The notes under the pieces: model-generated
The model's input: only the letters and a program-made list of their open reading frames with translations
Database searches by the model: none
What the model was told of the DNA's origin: nothing
Assembly: GCA_947624325.1 (NCBI GenBank)
Contig: CANQJT010000004.1
Location: 124,001 to 188,000 of the forward strand
Reading direction: 5' to 3'
Source of the DNA: Candidatus Gastranaerophilales bacterium
Lineage (GTDB): Bacteria; Cyanobacteriota; Vampirovibrionia; Gastranaerophilales; Gastranaerophilaceae
Length of the DNA stretch: 64,000 bases
Part shown: positions 26,214 to 57,940 of the stretch, in pieces
How the letters are laid out: each line of letters begins with the position of its first letter
How positions within the stretch are numbered: the stretch's first letter is position 1
Position numbers and translations under genes: made by a program

Positions 26214-26267
26214 AACTACTCCTTTATTTACAAATAGTATTCCAAAACTCAATATAGTGCAAATTTT

Positions 26268-26588
26268 TTATATGAAAATACTTTTAATGATTCTGAATAT
26301 TATTTCTAATTCTTTATTGTTTGAGTTTTTGACAATTTTTATGATTTCATCCTGTATGGTTTTAAAATCCTTTTTGTGTTCAAATTCAAAAATTGATGAC
26401 ATAGTAACATCAAGAGCTTTTGCAATTTTATATATATTCTCAATAGTTGTAAAACTGTTGCCTGTTTCAATTCGGCTTATGTGTCTTGGCTCCATATTCA
26501 CAATTTGCGCAAGTTGTTCTTGGCTATAATTTTTCTTTTCACGCAATTCCTTAATTCTTTTTCCAAATTGCTTTTTTAGATTTTCCAT
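26268..26588 (-). CDS. XRE-family transcriptional regulator
   Basis: A 106-residue protein with a Cro/C1 helix-turn-helix at about residues 8-65 (R-I-K-E-L-R, Y-S-Q-E-Q-L-A, H-I-S-R-I-E-T-G) followed by a short helical tail for dimerisation. The ATG at 26588 is preferred over the one at 26600 because GGGAG lies just upstream of it. It sits between the M48 peptidase and the divergent acyltransferase gene and could control either. No target palindrome is obvious in the 85 bases before the acyltransferase. Confidence 0.85.
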   Translation of the reverse strand: MENLKKQFGKRIKELREKKNYSQEQLAQIVNMEPRHISRIETGNSFTTIENIYKIAKALDVTMSSIFEFEHKKDFKTIQDEIIKIVKNSNNKELEIIFRIIKSIFI

Positions 26589-26673
26589 AACATCTCCCAC
26601 ATCAAGATTAATTTATATTCTTTAAGAAATTAAGGGTGAAATATGTGAAATATTTGTTGATTTTAGACTTTTT

Positions 26674-27834
26674 ATGTGTATTAATGTATATATTATGTGT
26701 TTATCTGATAAAATTTCTACAAATAATGTGAAATACGAATTTAAAATGTTGTATGCTATTGGTATAACATTAATTGTAATTGGACATTGCAAAGATAGCG
26801 GTATTTCATTTTTCAGCGATTTTTTTCCTTACTATTCTTTTCATTTGGCATTATTTGTATTTGCCTCCGGATACTTTTATAACCAAAAATATGAACAATC
26901 AGTAAAAGATTTTCTTATAAAAAAAATTAAAAGATTAATAATTCCTCTATATATCTGGAATATTTTTTACGCAATTCTTTTACACATTATTAAACATTTT
27001 GGATTTTTTGGCGGTGTGCATATAACGTTAAAATCAATATTTTGGCTGCCGATTACAAACGGACATCAGTTTATATTAAACCTGGGAGGATGGTTTGTAA
27101 TTCCGCTATTTATGATACATGTTATTAATATTTTGATAAGAAAATTATTATTTAAATTAAATATAAAGATAAATGAATTTTTATATTTTATATTCTGCCT
27201 GTTGTTGGGCTGTCTTGGGGTATTCTTGTCAAATAGCGGATATAAAGAAGGCTTTTATCTTGTTTTAGAAAGATTTTTATATTTTTTACCTTTTTATAGT
27301 CTTGGTTTTTTATATAAAAAATATGAAAAATATGATAAAATGAATAACTTAGCATATTTTGGAATTATATTTTTTATCACGTTATTAATTATATATTACT
27401 GGGGAGGAATGCCTACTTGTATTCCAAGCTGGGCAGATTTTCACGGCTATTTTCCTTTAGTTCCTTTTATATCAGGAATCATCGGAATAGCATTTTGGTT
27501 TAGAATATCAAAAATCCTAAGTCCCATAGCTGCAAAAAGTAAATATATCAATATCATTGCAGATAACACTTATACTATTATGATAAACCATCTTTTGGGA
27601 TTTAAAGTTCTTGATACTTGCTTTGCAATTTTACATAAATATACTACTTTATGTGCTAATTTTGACATACATCTATATAAAACAACAGTATGGGGCTATT
27701 ATTTGATACATAATAAATCTCAGTTTATAATTTTATATATAATTTTTGGAATTGTTTTTTCAATAGCACTTAAAAACTTTATATTAAAAATAATAGATTT
27801 TATCAAGAACTGTACGAGTAAATTTTCACGATAA
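26674..27834 (+). CDS. Membrane acyltransferase, acyltransferase 3 (OafA-like) family
   Basis: A protein of about 380 residues with ten or so hydrophobic segments. The first contains I-V-I-G-H, the catalytic His region of acyltransferase 3 enzymes. F-A-S-G-Y-F-Y and R-L-I-I-P-L-Y-I-W motifs follow at their usual spacing. These inner-membrane enzymes add acetyl or other acyl groups to lipopolysaccharide, capsule or peptidoglycan sugars. The start could also be the ATG at 26695; no strong ribosome-binding site decides. The neighbouring acetyltransferase and thiamine-diphosphate genes suggest surface glycan modification. Confidence 0.85.
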   Translation: MCINVYIMCLSDKISTNNVKYEFKMLYAIGITLIVIGHCKDSGISFFSDFFPYYSFHLALFVFASGYFYNQKYEQSVKDFLIKKIKRLIIPLYIWNIFYAILLHIIKHFGFFGGVHITLKSIFWLPITNGHQFILNLGGWFVIPLFMIHVINILIRKLLFKLNIKINEFLYFIFCLLLGCLGVFLSNSGYKEGFYLVLERFLYFLPFYSLGFLYKKYEKYDKMNNLAYFGIIFFITLLIIYYWGGMPTCIPSWADFHGYFPLVPFISGIIGIAFWFRISKILSPIAAKSKYINIIADNTYTIMINHLLGFKVLDTCFAILHKYTTLCANFDIHLYKTTVWGYYLIHNKSQFIILYIIFGIVFSIALKNFILKIIDFIKNCTSKFSR

Positions 27835-28098
27835 GCCGAAGGTATTAAAAGGGAAGCACCGCAAAGAAGTAAGGATTACAGAGCGAACATCTGAGTAATG
27901 CGAAGATTGTTACAAAAAGAACAGGCGAGATACGAGCCTTGTGAACTTGTATGCGAAACAAAGTACAGCTGAGTCTGTATCCGTAGCGAAGCGGAGTGTG
28001 ACTAAGCCTGTATGCATTATCTGAGTAAAATTCGGTTCGGACATCCGATATGTTATATTTCTAAGTAATGTTGACGGCTGCAGTTATAACTGTTAAAA
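27835..28098. other. Non-coding segment richer in GC than its flanks, several small hairpins
   Basis: About 260 bases between the acyltransferase and the thiamine-diphosphate gene have no supported open frame. The composition is visibly richer in G and C than the neighbours, with small inverted repeats (for example TCCG...CGGA near 27979-27994 and TCGGACATCCGA near 28036). A 20-base stretch at 28025-28044 recurs with two differences at 43992-44011. The word usage (GCGAAG, GAGCGAAC, CGAGATACGAGC) resembles the repeats next to the two tRNA genes, but I see no long direct match. Confidence 0.4.
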
Positions 28099-28128
28099 TT
28101 GATAATTATAAGTTTTTCGGAGTTTAAA

Positions 28129-29888
28129 TTGTCTGATTTAGTTAAAGTTTCTGATTATATAGCTGATTTTTTAGTGAAATACGGCATTAAGCATGTCTTT
28201 ACCGTTACGGGAGGAAATGCTATGCATTTAAATAACTCTTTCGGACATAATAAAAACTTAACTTGTGTTTATAACCATCATGAGCAGGCTTGCGCAATAG
28301 CGGCTGAGGCATATTCAAAGATAAATAATAAAATAGCCTTAGTGTGTATTACGTCTGGGGGGGGGGAATTAACACTTTAACAGGTGTTGCAGGAGCTTAT
28401 ATGGATTCCGTTCCCATGCTGATTATATCAGGTCAGGCTCGTTATGCTACAACGGTTTATGCTTCGGGATTAAAGCTGAGAACTTGCGGTATTCAAGAAT
28501 TTGATATTATTAATACCGTTAAAACTATGACAAAATATTGTAAATTGGTAGTAAAACCTGAAAAAATCAAATACTATTTGGAAAAAGCATTATATTATAG
28601 TATGAAAGGACGTAAAGGTCCATGCTGGCTTGATATTCCCTTGGATGTACAGCAAGCTTTGATTGATGTTGATACGTTAGAAGGATTTTCGCCGAAAAAT
28701 GATGAAACCGTAAATTTGAGCGATGAAAAAATTGATTTTATTCTTAATAAAATTAAAACTTCGTCTAAACCTATTATTGTTGCAGGCAACGGGATACGGC
28801 TCGCCGGCGCTCATGAAAAATTTATTTTGCTTCTGAAAAAACTAAATGTACCTGTTGTAACGACTTTAAGCAGTTGTGATGCTGTTGATTACGATAATGG
28901 TTTATATGTCGGAAAAATGGGTATTACCGGTGACAGAGCCGGAAATTTTGCCGTTCAAAATTCAGATTTATTATTATCCTTTGGGAGCCGACTAAGTTTT
29001 GATAAAATAGGTTTTAATTATAAATCATGGGCTCCGAATGCATATAAAATAGTTAATGACATTGATGATCAAGAATTAGAAAAGAAAACTATTTGTGCTG
29101 ATTTAAAAATTTGTTCGGACGTTAAATATTTTATTGAAAGATTACTGGACCGACTCGGAAATACTTCCTTGCCTGCAAAAAAAGAATGGATAGATAAATG
29201 TTCTTCTTGGAAAAGAGAATATCCTGTAGTTTTAAATGAATATTATGAAAGTAAAAAACCTAATTTATATGCTTTTGCAAATGAATTATCAAAACAATTA
29301 TTACCAACGGATAATTTAGTTGTAAGTGTAGGTTCTTCCAGAGTAGTATTGAGTCAGGCTGTAAAAATAAAAAAAGGTACAAGATTTATAACAAATGTAT
29401 CCATGGCAGCAATGGGATATTGCCTCCCGGCAGGAATCGGAGTTTGTTTAGCTTCTGAAAATTCTCATACAATAATTGTTACAGGCGACGGGAGTTTGCA
29501 GATGAATATTCAAGAATTGCAAACAATAATTCATAATAAGTTCCCGATTACAATTTTTGTCATTAACAATAACGGTTATTTTAGTATCAGACAAACTCAA
29601 AAATCATTTTTTGAAGGTAATTATGTCGGTGTCGGCGACGCAAGCGGGGATTTAAGTTTCCCCAATTTGAAAAAACTGTCTAAAGCTTATGGTTTTAAAT
29701 ATTTTAAATGTGATAAAACTGTTAATTTGTCAAAAATAATAGAACTTTCAAAAAATACAAATTATCCTGTTTTGTGCGAAATTGTTACGTCAGATTACGT
29801 AATTGCGCCAAGAGTAACAAGTAAACTGCTCCCGGACGGAAAGTTTATGTCTGCAGAATTTGACAATATGTATCCTTTTATAAAATAA
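28129..29888 (+). CDS. Thiamine-diphosphate enzyme (acetolactate synthase-like), frameshifted at a G10 tract
   Basis: Two overlapping frames together make one enzyme of about 585 residues. The first frame (28129-28380) gives the N-terminal pyrimidine-binding part with the H-E-Q-A-C-A catalytic Glu region. The second (to 29888) gives the remainder with the cofactor motif G-D-G-S-L-Q-M-N ... N-N-N-G-Y. They separate at ten G (28357-28366). One more G, or two fewer, would restore a single frame; with eleven, the T-S-G-G-G-G-I-N-T-L-T-G loop has the length of the family's T-S-G-P-G-x-T-N motif. The TTG start at 28129 follows CGGAG with 7-base spacing. As sequenced it is off. The substrate is unknown; related enzymes occur in surface-sugar and branched-chain pathways. 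Confidence 0.88.
28357..28366 (+). repeat. Homopolymeric G10 tract, switch of the thiamine-diphosphate gene
   Basis: Ten consecutive G in an otherwise AT-rich gene, placed exactly in the codons of the conserved Gly-rich T-S-G-x-G loop. Ten gives a premature TAA at 28378-28380; eleven or eight would be in frame. Confidence 0.9.
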
Positions 29889-29995
29889 GTAAATTAACTT
29901 AAATTATAATATATTTTTTATATAAAAAATTTAAAGCTAATGCAATAATTATTCTTATCAAAACAGTCTTCGGGAAGATTATATAAAGGATTTCA

Positions 29996-30257
29996 ATGTT
30001 TTTTACCTGCGCAAAAAGGAAACTTGAGCTTCAAATGCTTGGGGGGGGGGAGTGATGAAAAAACAAATAACAGTCGTAAATCATTACAAGGGTTTGATAT
30101 TGCAACAATAAATCAATTTATTTTAATTAATGCCGTTTTGTCGATTGCGTTTTATTTTACCTATATACCGGATAAAACCACTATGGAAAGAGCAGGGTCT
30201 GAGTATTTGTTTTGGAGTGTAATTCCTTTTTCACTTATAGTTTTCAGATTACTTTAA
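29996..30257 (+). pseudogene. C-terminal remnant of a UbiA-family (decaprenyl-phosphate phosphoribosyltransferase-like) gene, frameshifted
   Basis: Only about the last 85 residues of a UbiA prenyltransferase-type protein can be read. The first frame from ATG 29996 (good AAGGA site) gives A-K-R-K-L-E-L-Q-M-L, like the G-K-R-R-x-E-L segment of the family. After a G10 tract the other frame gives N-S-R-K-S-L-Q-G-F-D, then two hydrophobic segments and F-R-L-L. With nine or twelve G the frames join. The N-terminal two thirds, including the Asp-rich active-site motifs, are not upstream (an in-frame TAA precedes the ATG). It is therefore probably broken, although the tract retains a switch-like form. 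Confidence 0.6.
30041..30050 (+). repeat. Homopolymeric G10 tract in the UbiA-like remnant
   Basis: Ten consecutive G. Upstream codons are in frame with a stop right after the tract. Loss of one G (nine) or gain of two would join the A-K-R-K-L-E-L frame to the downstream UbiA-like frame. Confidence 0.88.
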
Positions 30258-30345
30258 TTTTAATTTTACCTTTTAAATAAATCTACTGAAAAATATATTT
30301 GACAAAAAAATTATATTTAGCTTTAATAAAATCAGGACAATAACA

Positions 30346-30921
30346 ATGTTAAATCTTAGAAAAATCGGACGGGGTTTTGTATTACCCCATAAAAAAATAA
30401 AAAGAATAATTGATATTTTTTATAAAAGAGTAAATTCATCTTCTCCCATTTTAGATTTTGGTTCGGGAACATTATTTTGGAGCGAAAAATTCGCATCTTC
30501 CTATAATAAAAATGTCATAGCATTTGACATTTTGTATTCTTCTACCCCCCCCCACACACATTTTTCTAATAAAAATATATTAATTAAAACATATTCATCA
30601 CTGGATGATATAAAAATCAACAATTATTCAATGATTTATACTTGTGATGTTTTGCACCACGTTGAAAAAGACGATTTAGAAAATCTTTTAACAAAATTTG
30701 CAGAATTAAGCAGCCTAATAATCATAAAAGATATTGACGCAAACGACAAAATCGGCAATCTGCAAAATAAAATCCACGATTTGGTAATTAACCATCAACA
30801 CGTCAATGACATAGATCCTGCCAAATTAGTAACGTTTTTTAAAAATAAAAACTATAAAATTAAAAAATTTAACCTAAAAAAGCTCGGCTATCCGCATTTT
30901 TTACTTGTTGCATATAAATAA
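30346..30921 (+). CDS. Class I SAM-dependent methyltransferase with internal C9 tract (frame on)
   Basis: A 191-residue protein. The SAM-binding motif I is I-L-D-F-G-S-G-T-L-F-W (about residues 36-46), an acidic residue ends the second strand (A-F-D-I-L-Y, about 61-66), and Y-T-C-D-V-L-H-H-V motif IV is at about 102-110. These fit a small Rossmann methyltransferase. Nine C at 30545-30553 encode Thr-Pro-Pro just after the second strand; in the present state the gene is intact. A one-base change would end it early. It closes the surface-modification region and probably methylates a sugar or lipid intermediate, which is inference from context. Confidence 0.8.
   Translation: MLNLRKIGRGFVLPHKKIKRIIDIFYKRVNSSSPILDFGSGTLFWSEKFASSYNKNVIAFDILYSSTPPHTHFSNKNILIKTYSSLDDIKINNYSMIYTCDVLHHVEKDDLENLLTKFAELSSLIIIKDIDANDKIGNLQNKIHDLVINHQHVNDIDPAKLVTFFKNKNYKIKKFNLKKLGYPHFLLVAYK
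30545..30553 (+). repeat. Homopolymeric C9 tract, switch of the methyltransferase gene
   Basis: Nine consecutive C followed by an ACACACA run, within the reading frame and currently in phase. It is the third G/C homopolymer in 2.2 kb of an AT-rich region. Confidence 0.85.
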
Positions 30922-30955
30922 TATAAAGAGGTTTTTTTATTAGTTTACTAATAAG

Positions 30956-31225
30956 TTATTTAGTCAATGGTGCGGTTTCATAGCATTCACTACAGCATTT
31001 TATTAAACCATATTGTCCTTGCCTGTTTAATTATCTGTATAAACGGTAACTGGTTTTAATTCGCCTGTTTTTTTTGAGACAAGTCTCATCTCTTGTGATA
31101 ATTGACCATCCGAAGATGAAACTGTAAAATTTAGATCCCACGAATAATTCTGATTTCAGAGCCTTCAGTTCCGTCATAGCACAAACACTTTACCTCTAAA
31201 AACAATGCATTTGAACACTATTTCC
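30956..31225 (-). pseudogene. Decayed coding remnant, unknown family
   Basis: On the minus strand three short protein-like stretches follow each other in different frames: a C-Y-D-G-T-E-G-S-E piece, then W-D-L-N-F-T-V-S-S-S-D-G followed by V-S-K-K-T-G-E-L-K-P-V-T-V-Y-T-D-N and a stop, then G-Q-Y-G-L-I-K-C-C-S-E-C-Y-E-T-A-P-L-T-K and a stop. The order and coding flavour suggest one small protein broken by at least two frameshifts. The C-C-x-x-C piece may be a metal knuckle. No recognised family. An eight-A run on this strand lies inside. Confidence 0.35.
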
Positions 31226-31540
31226 GACCTTTGGCAAGAATTCTTTACATAACTACGCAATCAACAGATTGCTTGTATGTAAGAATTTTACATCCATCAT
31301 TCTATGGCTCGCATTCGCTCGCTAAGAATGAATGTATGTCTGTTTTGTATCAACAAAATTTAAATTTTAAAAAATATTTTGACTTAAATCTAAGTAGAAA
31401 AATTATAAAATTTCAAAACGGAAAAACCAAAATAATCAAACTGTCTGTTATAATCAAAATGGGTGTGAAAATATAACGGACACAGAGTGGACATGGCTCA
31501 TACTTAAAAATCCTAAAACACTTGTAAAATAAAGGAGAAA
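31226..31540. other. Non-coding stretch with a long imperfect hairpin
   Basis: About 310 bases lie between the decayed remnant and the tandem repeats. An imperfect hairpin spans 31236-31289: the arms pair over about 22 bases and the inner stem GCAATC/GATTGC closes a 4-base loop. A weaker inverted repeat follows at about 31291-31335. An open frame on the plus strand runs through both hairpins (31231-31476) but has no ribosome-binding site or family likeness. This could be a remnant of a small mobile element. Confidence 0.4.
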
Positions 31541-32010
31541 AGAAATAGCTGGGGATACTTATATCGTTGCTGAGCTTTGCGAAGCATACGAGAGAAGTAT
31601 GCGCAGGCTTTTGTAAAATTCAAGCACATCAGTGCGTAGAATTTAAAAAGACCAGCTGAGATGTAATCTCGTTCTTAGAACTTAAAAAATGAGTATTAGA
31701 AATAGCTGGGGATACTTATATCGTTGCTGAGCCTTGCGAAGCATACGAGAGAAGTATGCGCAGGCTTTTGTAAAATTCAAGCACATTAGTGCGTAGAATT
31801 TAAAAAAACCAGCTGAGATGTAATCTCGTTCTTAGAACTTAGAAATAAGCATTAAAAATAACTGGGGATACTTATATCGTTGCTGAGCTTTGCGAAGCAT
31901 ACGAGAGAAGTATGCGCAGGCTTTTGTAAAATTCAAGCACATCAGTGCGTAGAATTTAAAAAGACCAGCTGAGATGTAATCTCGTTCTTAGAACTTAAAA
32001 AATGAGTATT
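31541..32010. repeat. Three tandem 157-bp repeats, each carrying the tRNA 3' end
   Basis: Units start at 31541, 31698 and 31854, and the tRNA copy of the same leading sequence starts at 32011, giving a period of 156-157 bases. Each unit begins on the plus strand with AAATAGCTGGGGA or a close variant, the reverse complement of the last 13-14 bases of the adjacent tRNA plus flank. The remainder is not tRNA and contains small hairpins (GCATAC/GTATGC, AAATTC...GAATTT around GCAC/GTGC, GAGAT/ATCTC). In tRNA orientation the array lies directly downstream, so it could be part of the primary transcript. Unit 1 and unit 3 are nearly identical. Confidence 0.9.
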
Positions 32011-32015
32011 AGAAA

Positions 32016-32089
32016 TAGCTGGGGAGAGATTCGAACTCTCGACCTCGCGGGTATGAGCCGCGCGCTCTCGCCAACTGAGCTACCCAGCC
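32016..32089 (-). tRNA. tRNA with CAU anticodon (elongator Met or lysidine-type Ile2)
   Basis: A 74-base cloverleaf. The acceptor stem is GGCTGGG with CCCAGCT (last pair G-U), the D stem GCTC/GAGC, the anticodon stem CGCGG/CCGCG around loop CTCATAC, and the T stem GAGAG/CTCTC. CCA is not encoded. The anticodon stem lacks the three G-C pairs in initiator arrangement, so it is not the initiator tRNA. Methionine versus isoleucine (AUA, by TilS modification) cannot be settled by eye. Its 3' end is repeated in the array that follows it. Confidence 0.9.
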
Positions 32090-32228
32090 AAAAAGCTATA
32101 ATTATTATTATATGCTCAAAAAAAAATTACAATACTTTTTTATTTTTCACAAAAAACTTAAATTACCAAATAAGCCTTACTTAAAGAATAATGAATTTTT
32201 TTAACGATAAGTTTATTAATAAAGCATT

Positions 32229-55422: not shown

Positions 55423-56153
55423 ACAACATAAAATAAGAATGTAACAATTAAATCAACTAAAAGTAAAAATACGGTTGCTTTAATAGCCGCATTTGTAGTT
55501 GAAAGTCCGACACCTTTTGCACCGCCGTGTGTTTCATAGCCTTGTGTTGCACAGACAAGCGGAATTGTTATGCCGAATAAAAATCCTTTAAATATACTTA
55601 TATATATGTCTCTGGTATTAAGCCATAACCAAACGGAAGACATATAACGATTAGGATGAAGCCCTATTGTAAAATACGAAATAATCATACCGCCGAGCAC
55701 TCCAAACAATTCGGCAAGAATAACAACCATTGGAACGGTAATTGCGCCAGCCAGTATTCTCGGGGTAAAATAATAGCCTACAGGTTCAACTTTTAAAGTT
55801 TTTAAAGCATCTACTTGAGATGTAACTTTCATATTAGCGATTTCGGCACTTATTGCAGTACCTGCCCTTGCATTTATTGCAAGCGCAGCAAACCCCGGTG
55901 CAAGTTCACGAATTAATGCAACTGCTAAAAACCCACCTACATAGCTTTCTGCACCCGACATTAAAAATTGTTTTGATACCTGTAAGGCAATAACTACAGC
56001 CGCTATAAATACAATACTTAGTGCTATCGGCAATGAATCGTAGCTAATCATTACCGCTCTGGATATAACTGAGTCATACTTAACATTTCCGCCAAGTATA
56101 TATTTTATTACTTTTATAAAATTTTCTATGCATAATCCTAAAAAGTTTATCAT
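55419..56153 (-). CDS. mlaE: ABC transporter permease, MlaE family
   Basis: A 244-residue inner-membrane protein of the MlaE/DUF140 permease family, with R-E-L-A-P and A-R-A-G-T-A-I-S-A-E-I-A-x-M-K-V motifs in the central region and five or so membrane segments. MlaE works with MlaF ATPase and MlaD to move phospholipids between the inner and outer membranes; in cyanobacteria and plastids the homologue is TGD1. It is coupled to mutL by a 4-base overlap. The ATPase and substrate-binding genes are not in the window. Confidence 0.93.
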   Translation of the reverse strand: MINFLGLCIENFIKVIKYILGGNVKYDSVISRAVMISYDSLPIALSIVFIAAVVIALQVSKQFLMSGAESYVGGFLAVALIRELAPGFAALAINARAGTAISAEIANMKVTSQVDALKTLKVEPVGYYFTPRILAGAITVPMVVILAELFGVLGGMIISYFTIGLHPNRYMSSVWLWLNTRDIYISIFKGFLFGITIPLVCATQGYETHGGAKGVGLSTTNAAIKATVFLLLVDLIVTFLFYVV

Positions 56154-57940
56154 TTATTATCCTTTACGCACCTGTCAAAATATGATGCAATTTCTTTCAA
56201 CGGGATATAGTGTGAAATTGGTCTGCCATGCGGACATGTATATGGATTTTTTGTAGTCCTTAATTTTTTTACTATATCTTCCATTTGCCACAAGGTTAAC
56301 TTTTCACCTGCTTTTACCGAAGCTTTGCAGGAGGTTGTTATTAGTATCCTCTCTTCTATTGTATCTAAGTCGCTATCGGGTGAATTTTTTAAGTTTTTCA
56401 AAAGCTCTGACAGCACATCTTTAGGTTTTGCCTGAGATAAAACCTGCGGAATTTTCTTAAATATTACCTGATTATTTGATATTTTTTCAATTTGATAGCC
56501 GAATTTATTTAATTGTTCTTTTGCATTTTCCAAAATATCAGTATCAACAGGCTCAACATCAATAACATCTGAAACAATTAAAAGCTGTGAAGCAATTTCT
56601 TTTTCGCTTTTTAATTTTTCATAAATATATCGTTCCTGTGCAATATGCTGGTCTATTATTTCAAGATTATCTTCATTTTCAACAAGTATATATGTATTAT
56701 TATACTGACCTATAACATTTATTTGCTTCAAACGGGGAGTTGAATCAAATGTTATTTCCATTTTCTTTTGAAAGACTTCCTCGTCCGATTGAGGTTTATC
56801 CTCTATTTTTCTTTCAACTTTAATAGGGAAAATAGGACTTTTTATATCTTCGGTATCCTCCTTAACAAAAGCGGAAGAAGTATTAAAAGGCAGAATATTA
56901 TTAGATTTTTCAATTGTTTGTGCGAGAACGCAGTTGTTTTCAAAATCTGTTTTAATATTTGAAAGTGCAGAACTAAGTGCGCTTTGAACAAAATTAAATA
57001 TCCTGTTAGGATTTTTATATCTGACTTCTCTTTTAGTAGGATGTGCGTTAACATCAACTTCTTCAGGGTTGATATGAAGATTAATCACCACAAACGGATA
57101 TCTTCCGTTGGGGAGCATATTCTTATAAGCGATATCAATAGCTTTCAACATTACAGGGCATTTTATCATTCTTGAATTAACAAATGTATAAATTGATTTT
57201 TTACTTGAACGAGTGTAAGAAGGAACCGAAACATAGCCGTCAATAGCTAAACCGCCTAAAGAATCCGTTTTTTTAACTTCTTTCAGTTCTTCAATAATAT
57301 TCGGAGGATAAATTTGTGTAATTCTTGTCAACAAATCGGCATTTTGCGTTGTTGTTAAAATTTGGTTTCCTTCATTTTTAAGAATAAAAGCTATTTTAGG
57401 ATTTGCCAAGGCAAGAGCATTAACTAATTCCTGAATGTATGCAAATTCGGTTTTAGGATTTTTTAAAAATTTCAAACGAGCAGGCTGGTTAAAAAATAAA
57501 TCTTTAATTTCCATAATAGTACCTTGAGCACAACCTGTTTGAGAAGCATTAACGACCGAATTTTCCGATTCAACTTTAGTCCCATAGTCAAAATCTTTTG
57601 TTCTTGTAGTACAGGAAACTCTTGCTATAGAAATAATACTTGCGAGGGCCTCACCTCTAAACCCCAATGTTTCTATATTAAAAAGGCTGTTTTCATCAGT
57701 AAGTTTGCTTGTTGCATGTTTTGAAAAAGCAAGCTGAATATCATCCGGATGAATACCGGAACCGTTATCAGCTATACGAATATTTCTGCACTCATTGGAA
57801 ACAGATATTTCTATTTTTGATGCAAGTGCATCTATGGAATTTTCAACAAGTTCTTTAACAACACTGGCCGGTCGTTCAATTACTTCACCGGCAGCTATTT
57901 GATTTATTAAATTAACAGGTAATTGTTTTATTCTTGCCAT
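56150..57940 (-). CDS. mutL: DNA mismatch repair protein MutL with endonuclease motif
   Basis: A 596-residue protein. The GHKL ATPase domain is N-terminal (V-E-N-S-I-D-A, D-N-G-S-G-I and G-F-R-G-E-A-L motifs). The C-terminal dimerisation domain has D-Q-H-I-A-Q-E-R-Y-I-Y-E, which fits the metal-dependent nuclease motif DQHxX2EX4E, plus a late C-P-H-G-R-P. It is therefore of the nicking type found where MutH is absent. It acts with MutS, which is not in the window. Translation of mlaE is coupled to its stop. Confidence 0.97.
   Translation of the reverse strand: MARIKQLPVNLINQIAAGEVIERPASVVKELVENSIDALASKIEISVSNECRNIRIADNGSGIHPDDIQLAFSKHATSKLTDENSLFNIETLGFRGEALASIISIARVSCTTRTKDFDYGTKVESENSVVNASQTGCAQGTIMEIKDLFFNQPARLKFLKNPKTEFAYIQELVNALALANPKIAFILKNEGNQILTTTQNADLLTRITQIYPPNIIEELKEVKKTDSLGGLAIDGYVSVPSYTRSSKKSIYTFVNSRMIKCPVMLKAIDIAYKNMLPNGRYPFVVINLHINPEEVDVNAHPTKREVRYKNPNRIFNFVQSALSSALSNIKTDFENNCVLAQTIEKSNNILPFNTSSAFVKEDTEDIKSPIFPIKVERKIEDKPQSDEEVFQKKMEITFDSTPRLKQINVIGQYNNTYILVENEDNLEIIDQHIAQERYIYEKLKSEKEIASQLLIVSDVIDVEPVDTDILENAKEQLNKFGYQIEKISNNQVIFKKIPQVLSQAKPKDVLSELLKNLKNSPDSDLDTIEERILITTSCKASVKAGEKLTLWQMEDIVKKLRTTKNPYTCPHGRPISHYIPLKEIASYFDRCVKDNK

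Follow-up and report, generated by a model that had tools for sequence, protein, structure and literature searches.

A tract of ten G lying within the gene of a thiamine-diphosphate (ThDP) enzyme in a Gastranaerophilales bacterium is very probably a slipped-strand switch for translational phase variation, which currently holds the gene OFF and belongs to a set of poly-G/C tracts distributed over the whole genome. Phase variability and the OFF state had both been claimed in the first-pass annotation of the window (the whole stretch of 64,000 nucleotides that was analysed), and they are still the best reading. This reading rests mainly on the tract class behaving like contingency loci, i.e., on its excess over chance, its mode at lengths of 9-11, the mixture of ON and OFF genes, the differences in length between homologues, and the purifying selection on both halves of switched-off genes. 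That annotation did not include a second G10 tract at 30041-30050, a C9 tract at 30545-30553, or the 55 further tracts located outside the window.

The G10 tract and the ThDP gene

Direct reading of the window confirmed that there are exactly ten G at 28357-28366 of the forward strand, in the codons for the TSGxGxxN loop (Table 1). The premature stop that had been predicted at this length was recovered by translation from the TTG codon at 28129, which gives a product of 83 residues ending in CITSGGGELTL. When the tract was varied in silico from 7 to 13 G, a full-length enzyme was obtained with 8 G (585 residues) and with 11 G (586 residues), the same two lengths that had been proposed, and 7, 9, 10, 12 and 13 G gave products of 80-84 residues; one-unit changes in length therefore toggle the reading frame of the complete gene, as is characteristic of a contingency locus. 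The second half of the gene is otherwise readable, also as claimed, and Pfam detects its M and C domains intact, with the GDG motif kept as GDGSLQMN. The TPP_enzyme_N domain spans the tract, with profile positions 2-77 matched in the first half and 73-105 in the second; all three ThDP domains (TPP_enzyme N, M and C) are thus present together with the GDG motif, as in YerE-like enzymes.

The loop [ST][STA]GxGxxN was found in 88 of the 92 homologues taken from ORFs at other loci, and since this pattern is so widely shared, 11 G would give the usual loop length of the family (TSGGGGIN), in line with the initial proposal. A Pro residue is present in 86 of the 88 loop-bearing homologues at the position where the tract encodes Gly, and for this reason the activity of the full-length protein is not guaranteed. 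Judging from the homologues, the tract seems to have arisen here by replacing the conserved Pro codon.

Table 1. Coordinates of the features in the window that are relevant to the G10 tract.
Feature	Position	Strand	Evidence
Acyltransferase, Acyl_transf_3 family; same variable island, no tract	26674..27834	+	Pfam E=7e-20
Promoter-like TTGACG-17-TAAAAT, TG ahead of second hexamer; candidate promoter for the ThDP gene itself	28071..28099	+	Consensus scan, which alone is no proof of function
GGAG, candidate ribosome-binding site 6 nt 5' of the TTG start	28119..28122	+	Read from sequence
5' part of the YerE/JanthE-like ThDP gene; TTG start 28129, premature TAA after 83 codons at 10 G	28129..28380	+	Translation; Pfam TPP_enzyme_N E=3e-20
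G10 tract, proposed switch, in TSGxGxxN loop codons	28357..28366	+	Sequence and frame computation
3' part of the ThDP gene, 506 open codons and stop; frame differs from the 5' part at 10 G	28367..29888	+	Translation; TPP_enzyme_M, TPP_enzyme_C; 8rph/JanthE E=6e-88
UbiA-like prenyltransferase gene, 3' fragment	29996..30257	+	Flank 88% identical to C1 copy; UbiA found in C1 copy
Second G10 tract, within the UbiA-like fragment	30041..30050	+	Tract scan
SAM methyltransferase-like ORF, in frame through the C9 tract (ON)	30346..30921	+	Methyltransf_23 E=1e-8; shift 0
C9 on the + strand (G9 on the -), inside the methyltransferase ORF	30545..30553	-	Tract scan
MutL	56150..57940	-	TIGR00585 505.6 bits, cut-off 180

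Poly-G/C tracts across the genome

The genome to which the window belongs (G000, 1.98 Mb) contains 58 distinct runs of at least nine G, with lengths from G9 to G11, where a first-order Markov model predicts approximately 1.0. Likewise, the window has 8 overlapping G8 words against 0.22 expected, a value reached by none of 100 shuffles; tracts are thus both longer and commoner than chance in the genome and in the window, as is expected of contingency loci. In 261.5 kb of this genome, the G/C runs of 5, 6, 7, 8, 9, 10 and 11 nucleotides number 34, 1, 0, 2, 33, 20 and 5, respectively; this DNA was chosen around tracts, the three of the window included, and only the shape of the distribution is informative. 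Taken alone, the window has ten G/C runs of 5 nucleotides and three of 9-10, and lengths of 6-8 are absent. No second length mode was detected for the A/T runs of the window, which fall off smoothly to 9, and a general excess of long homopolymers is ruled out by this result. The tracts are also clustered, given that 30 pairs lie within 5 kb of each other versus 8.3 expected (the maximum in 2000 simulations was 22), and two further tracts are found no more than 2.2 kb from the G10 tract of the ThDP gene.

ON and OFF states, length variation and selection

Coding tracts were defined as those with at least 40 open codons on each side, and 32 tracts of this genome belong to this class. Twenty of these are in frame (ON) and 12 out of frame (OFF), an in-frame share above the one-third expected for random lengths (P=0.0007); when the close relatives G034 and G010 are included, the three genomes together have 48 coding tracts ON and 37 OFF. 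The genes bearing tracts include those for UbiA-like proteins, CDP-glucose 4,6-dehydratase, acetaldehyde dehydrogenase, FkbM methyltransferase, mannosyltransferase-like membrane proteins, polysaccharide pyruvyl transferase, acyltransferase, epimerases, glycosyltransferases, hexapeptide transferases and radical SAM proteins. A number of the tract genes belong to no family; ten of them were searched against NCBIfam and nothing was found, and a search for an anti-phage or restriction role among these genes returned only weak PADLOC matches, for one gene.

A sequencing or assembly error, by which the true tract would have 11 G, the ThDP gene would be intact, and the other OFF states would be miscalls as well, is considered improbable. 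Poly-G artefacts do exist in the assemblies of some relatives, since the runs of 20-30 G found at contig ends, or close to them, in G013 (C108) and G019 (C60) are likely of this origin, which makes the tract counts there less reliable; in addition, 6 of the 58 tracts of the genome under study are located no more than 1 kb from a contig end, versus 1.2 expected, and it may be that tracts or nearby repeats break the assembly. Nevertheless, a one-base miscall cannot create the excess of tracts or the mode at 9-11, the same length distribution is present in three separate assemblies, and the error would have to affect near 37% of the coding tracts. Furthermore, Campylobacter tracts of such length have been read accurately on Illumina (PMC6321876), which also counts against an error.

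The tract length differs in 13 of 19 pairs with homologous flanks on both sides, compared between and within G000, G034 and G010 at loci other than the ThDP gene. Two paralogues on C3 carry G9 in the ON state (90+885 residues) and G10 in the OFF state (90+880 residues), with dN/dS values of 0.21 before and 0.25 after the tract; a transketolase-like gene, named by eye from its sequence, has G10 (ON) in G034 versus G9 (OFF) in G010 (dN/dS 0.09/0.18); and a third pair has G9 (ON) in G010 versus G8 (OFF) in G034 (dN/dS 0.05/0.11). The OFF genes at these three loci are under purifying selection on both sides of the tract, with dN/dS of 0.05-0.25. The length differences together with this selection are the strongest arguments against error and against decay, and they concern loci other than the gene in the window. 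For the ThDP gene itself, no orthologue above 45% identity was found within the genus (the best relative in the genus reaches 43%, and the best elsewhere 56%), and a comparison of the tract flanks and of the promoter cassette described below with viral contigs gave no same-species variants. In a paralogous ThDP gene of this genome, at C1:200953, a run of 8 is located close to the C-terminus, and ThDP paralogues of two other species (L176 and L178) have G8 and G9 in the same region.

Homopolymers can also cause slippage of the ribosome or of RNA polymerase, and some full-length enzyme could in this way be made from the 10-G gene without any change in the DNA. This explanation, which is compatible with switching at the DNA level, is the least probable of those considered, given that tract lengths differ between homologues, that the tracts in promoter spacers have no reading frame, and that no extra slippage signal was noted.

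Promoter-spacer tracts

Besides the coding class, a recurring module was identified, TTGC..C-Gn-TAAAA(G/A)TGG-TATAAT, followed by a leader of approx. 28 nt and ATG, in which the tract separates a TTGC -35 from an extended -10 element. A cassette of the form TTGCnnC-Gn-TAAAARTGGTATAAT with a 28-nt leader is repeated before many genes and often precedes Kelch-like proteins. In the 28 promoter-class sites examined, a TTG is present no more than 14 nt upstream of the tract in every case, against a background of 24%, and the spacers measure 18-21 nt in all but one. The cassette is found in 15 of the 41 genomes of the genus and never in the reversed control; at L052, L053, L044, L041 and L185-L228 it precedes many proteins that resemble one another at the N-terminus, Kelch-like ones among them. 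At L039:2151-8591, a G9 tract lies a short distance upstream of the frame for a repetitive surface-type protein of 2147 residues.

The enzyme and its possible pathway

The gene product had been described as acetolactate synthase-like. Its assignment to the ThDP family stands, and the relationship could be sharpened to YerE/JanthE-like enzymes: the best solved relative is 8rph (E=6e-88), which is the structure of JanthE (PMC12188165), versus 1.4e-57 for the best acetolactate synthase, and the second half of the gene scores under the curated thresholds set for the listed NCBIfam models of acetolactate synthase. By sequence, the enzyme would therefore be nearer to the YerE-like group than to the acetolactate synthases. 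In the synthesis of the branched sugars of LPS, YerE-like enzymes attach an aldehyde to CDP-3,6-dideoxy-4-keto-glucose, and ErwE prefers 4-hydroxy-2-oxo acids (PMC12247030). A search of genome contigs revealed relatives with 41-56% identity, mostly in Firmicutes and many of them in Lachnospiraceae, that often adjoin RfbF-, RfbG- and RfbH-like genes and an epimerase, according to the neighbour names read from the sequences. RfbF, RfbG and RfbH are all encoded in the genome under study, where the region C1:189-207 kb contains glucose-1-phosphate cytidylyltransferase, CDP-glucose 4,6-dehydratase, RfbH, 4-hydroxy-2-oxovalerate aldolase, acetaldehyde dehydrogenase and three further ThDP enzymes; here the dehydratase and acetaldehyde dehydrogenase genes carry G/C11 tracts, both out of frame. 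The ThDP gene is located on a different contig from this cluster, and the substrate proposed for its product derives from family and pathway and not from linkage.

From these data the following scheme is proposed. Replication slippage would add or remove one G, and the change could be reversed in the cells; 11 or 8 G would allow synthesis of the full-length YerE/JanthE-like enzyme, and the present 10 G would leave the 83-residue stub. The most likely reaction is the decarboxylation of a 2-oxo acid, after which the enzyme passes the activated aldehyde on to the keto function of a CDP-4-keto-3,6-dideoxyhexose; the product would be a branched surface sugar. The switch would be one of about 58 poly-G/C contingency tracts that affect glycan-building and surface-protein genes as well as promoter spacers, and its presumed benefit is surface diversity against phage or host.

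The genomic island around the ThDP gene

At this locus, neither G034 nor G010 has an equivalent of the region 26264-31900, short repeat matches aside, and the genes flanking this island match those of both relatives at 83-93%; therefore, the ThDP gene is probably a horizontally acquired, variable module. In G010, different genes adjoin the metalloprotease gene at the island locus. The UbiA-like fragment of the island has a fuller, tract-split copy at C1:186188, in which G9 occupies the equivalent position. The segment 27763-28032, located between the acyltransferase gene and the ThDP gene, gives many short matches scattered over G034 and G010, corresponding to a dispersed repeat. At 31543-32025, three tandem copies of approx. 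170 nt (spacing 157 and 156) end at the gene for tRNA-Met (32015-32090); the first and the third copy are 99% alike.

It could be argued that a horizontally acquired ThDP gene has simply drifted into a dead frame and will decay like the truncated UbiA-like gene next door; the absence of the island from the locus in G034 and G010 agrees with this, as does the fact that the closest relatives of the gene are in Lachnospiraceae (56%). However, the gene retains 506 more codons without a stop, with the three ThDP domains and the GDG motif, its lesion is exactly the recurrent switch element of the genome, and other OFF genes are under purifying selection. A plain pseudogene is for these reasons likewise considered improbable, and a phase-variable gene in its OFF state continues to be the preferred reading.

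Distribution in the genus and mismatch repair

Distinct tracts of length 9-12 were counted per genome as the sum of forward and reversed-control counts, a procedure that recovers the 58 known for the genome under study. Among the 41 genomes of the genus, 24 have 16-119 tracts (the maximum being that of G032), three have 5-8, and 14 have 0-2; few tracts are present in other families of the order. In the topology of a single-gene tree of 23 genomes, tract-poor genomes occupy at least four places, and the whole set may tentatively be considered to have been gained or lost repeatedly within the genus. On the best reading, the switch of the ThDP gene would belong to a genus-level phasome.

MutS1 is encoded in the genome under study at C10:23746-26271 (926 bits) and scores above the cut-off in 39 of the 41 genomes, tract-rich and tract-poor alike. 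Because of this distribution, and because MutL is encoded in the window, loss of mismatch repair does not explain the tracts and was ruled out as their cause. The presence of both proteins also counts against switching, given that slippage rates should drop.

A search of the open PubMed Central literature found no link of this group to phase variation, in agreement with the first-pass annotation, which knew of no report from a melainabacterial-type genome; apparently, this is a known mechanism in a new lineage. We give an even chance to the broader proposal that, outside the known phase-variable pathogens, a separate lineage independently built a poly-G/C phasome despite intact mismatch-repair genes. 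Such a phasome would be larger than those of Campylobacter in certain species (G032 has 119 tracts), would include coding switches as well as a recurring promoter cassette, and would have been gained or lost several times in one genus. If the tracts switch, about 58 independent switches would make very many surface states possible in one species, with a bearing on phage escape, host immunity and the strain variability observed in metagenomes. The genus would also offer a natural experiment, in which close species, nearly all of which retain the same repair genes, can be compared for gain and loss of the phasome, and some of the pseudogenes reported by annotators in these genomes may be OFF genes.

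Comparison with known systems

Surface glycan genes are prominent among the phase-variable genes of Campylobacter, as they are in this genome, and mismatch repair is absent in the textbook Campylobacter setting, unlike the present case, where MutS1 and MutL are both encoded. The two phasomes are also alike in that the genome has a low GC content, tract lengths peak at 9 and then at 10 G, most tracts are located in ORFs, and ON and OFF states are mixed. In Campylobacter, 9G accounts for 53% and 10G for 26% of the tracts as determined with PhasomeIt, the draft genomes of C. jejuni have a median of 20 tracts, and some Campylobacter have up to 81 putative loci (PMC6321876). In contrast with the C. 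jejuni median, 58 tracts are found here, and a promoter cassette with a tract in its spacer is repeated along the genome.

In the switches of the porA/fetA type from Neisseria, a homopolymer is located in the promoter spacer. The promoter class described here resembles them in that the tract lies between the -35 and -10 elements and its length sets their spacing (mostly 18-21 nt); the difference is that here one cassette precedes many genes, often those of Kelch-like proteins, in 15 genomes of the genus. Regarding the enzyme, its sequence places it with YerE, ErwE and JanthE (PMC12247030) in the family of three-domain ThDP carboligases, whose homologues adjoin genes of the RfbF/RfbG/RfbH type, but unlike those three it has poly-G in the cofactor-loop codons and Gly in place of the conserved Pro, and its gene stands apart from the CDP-sugar cluster.
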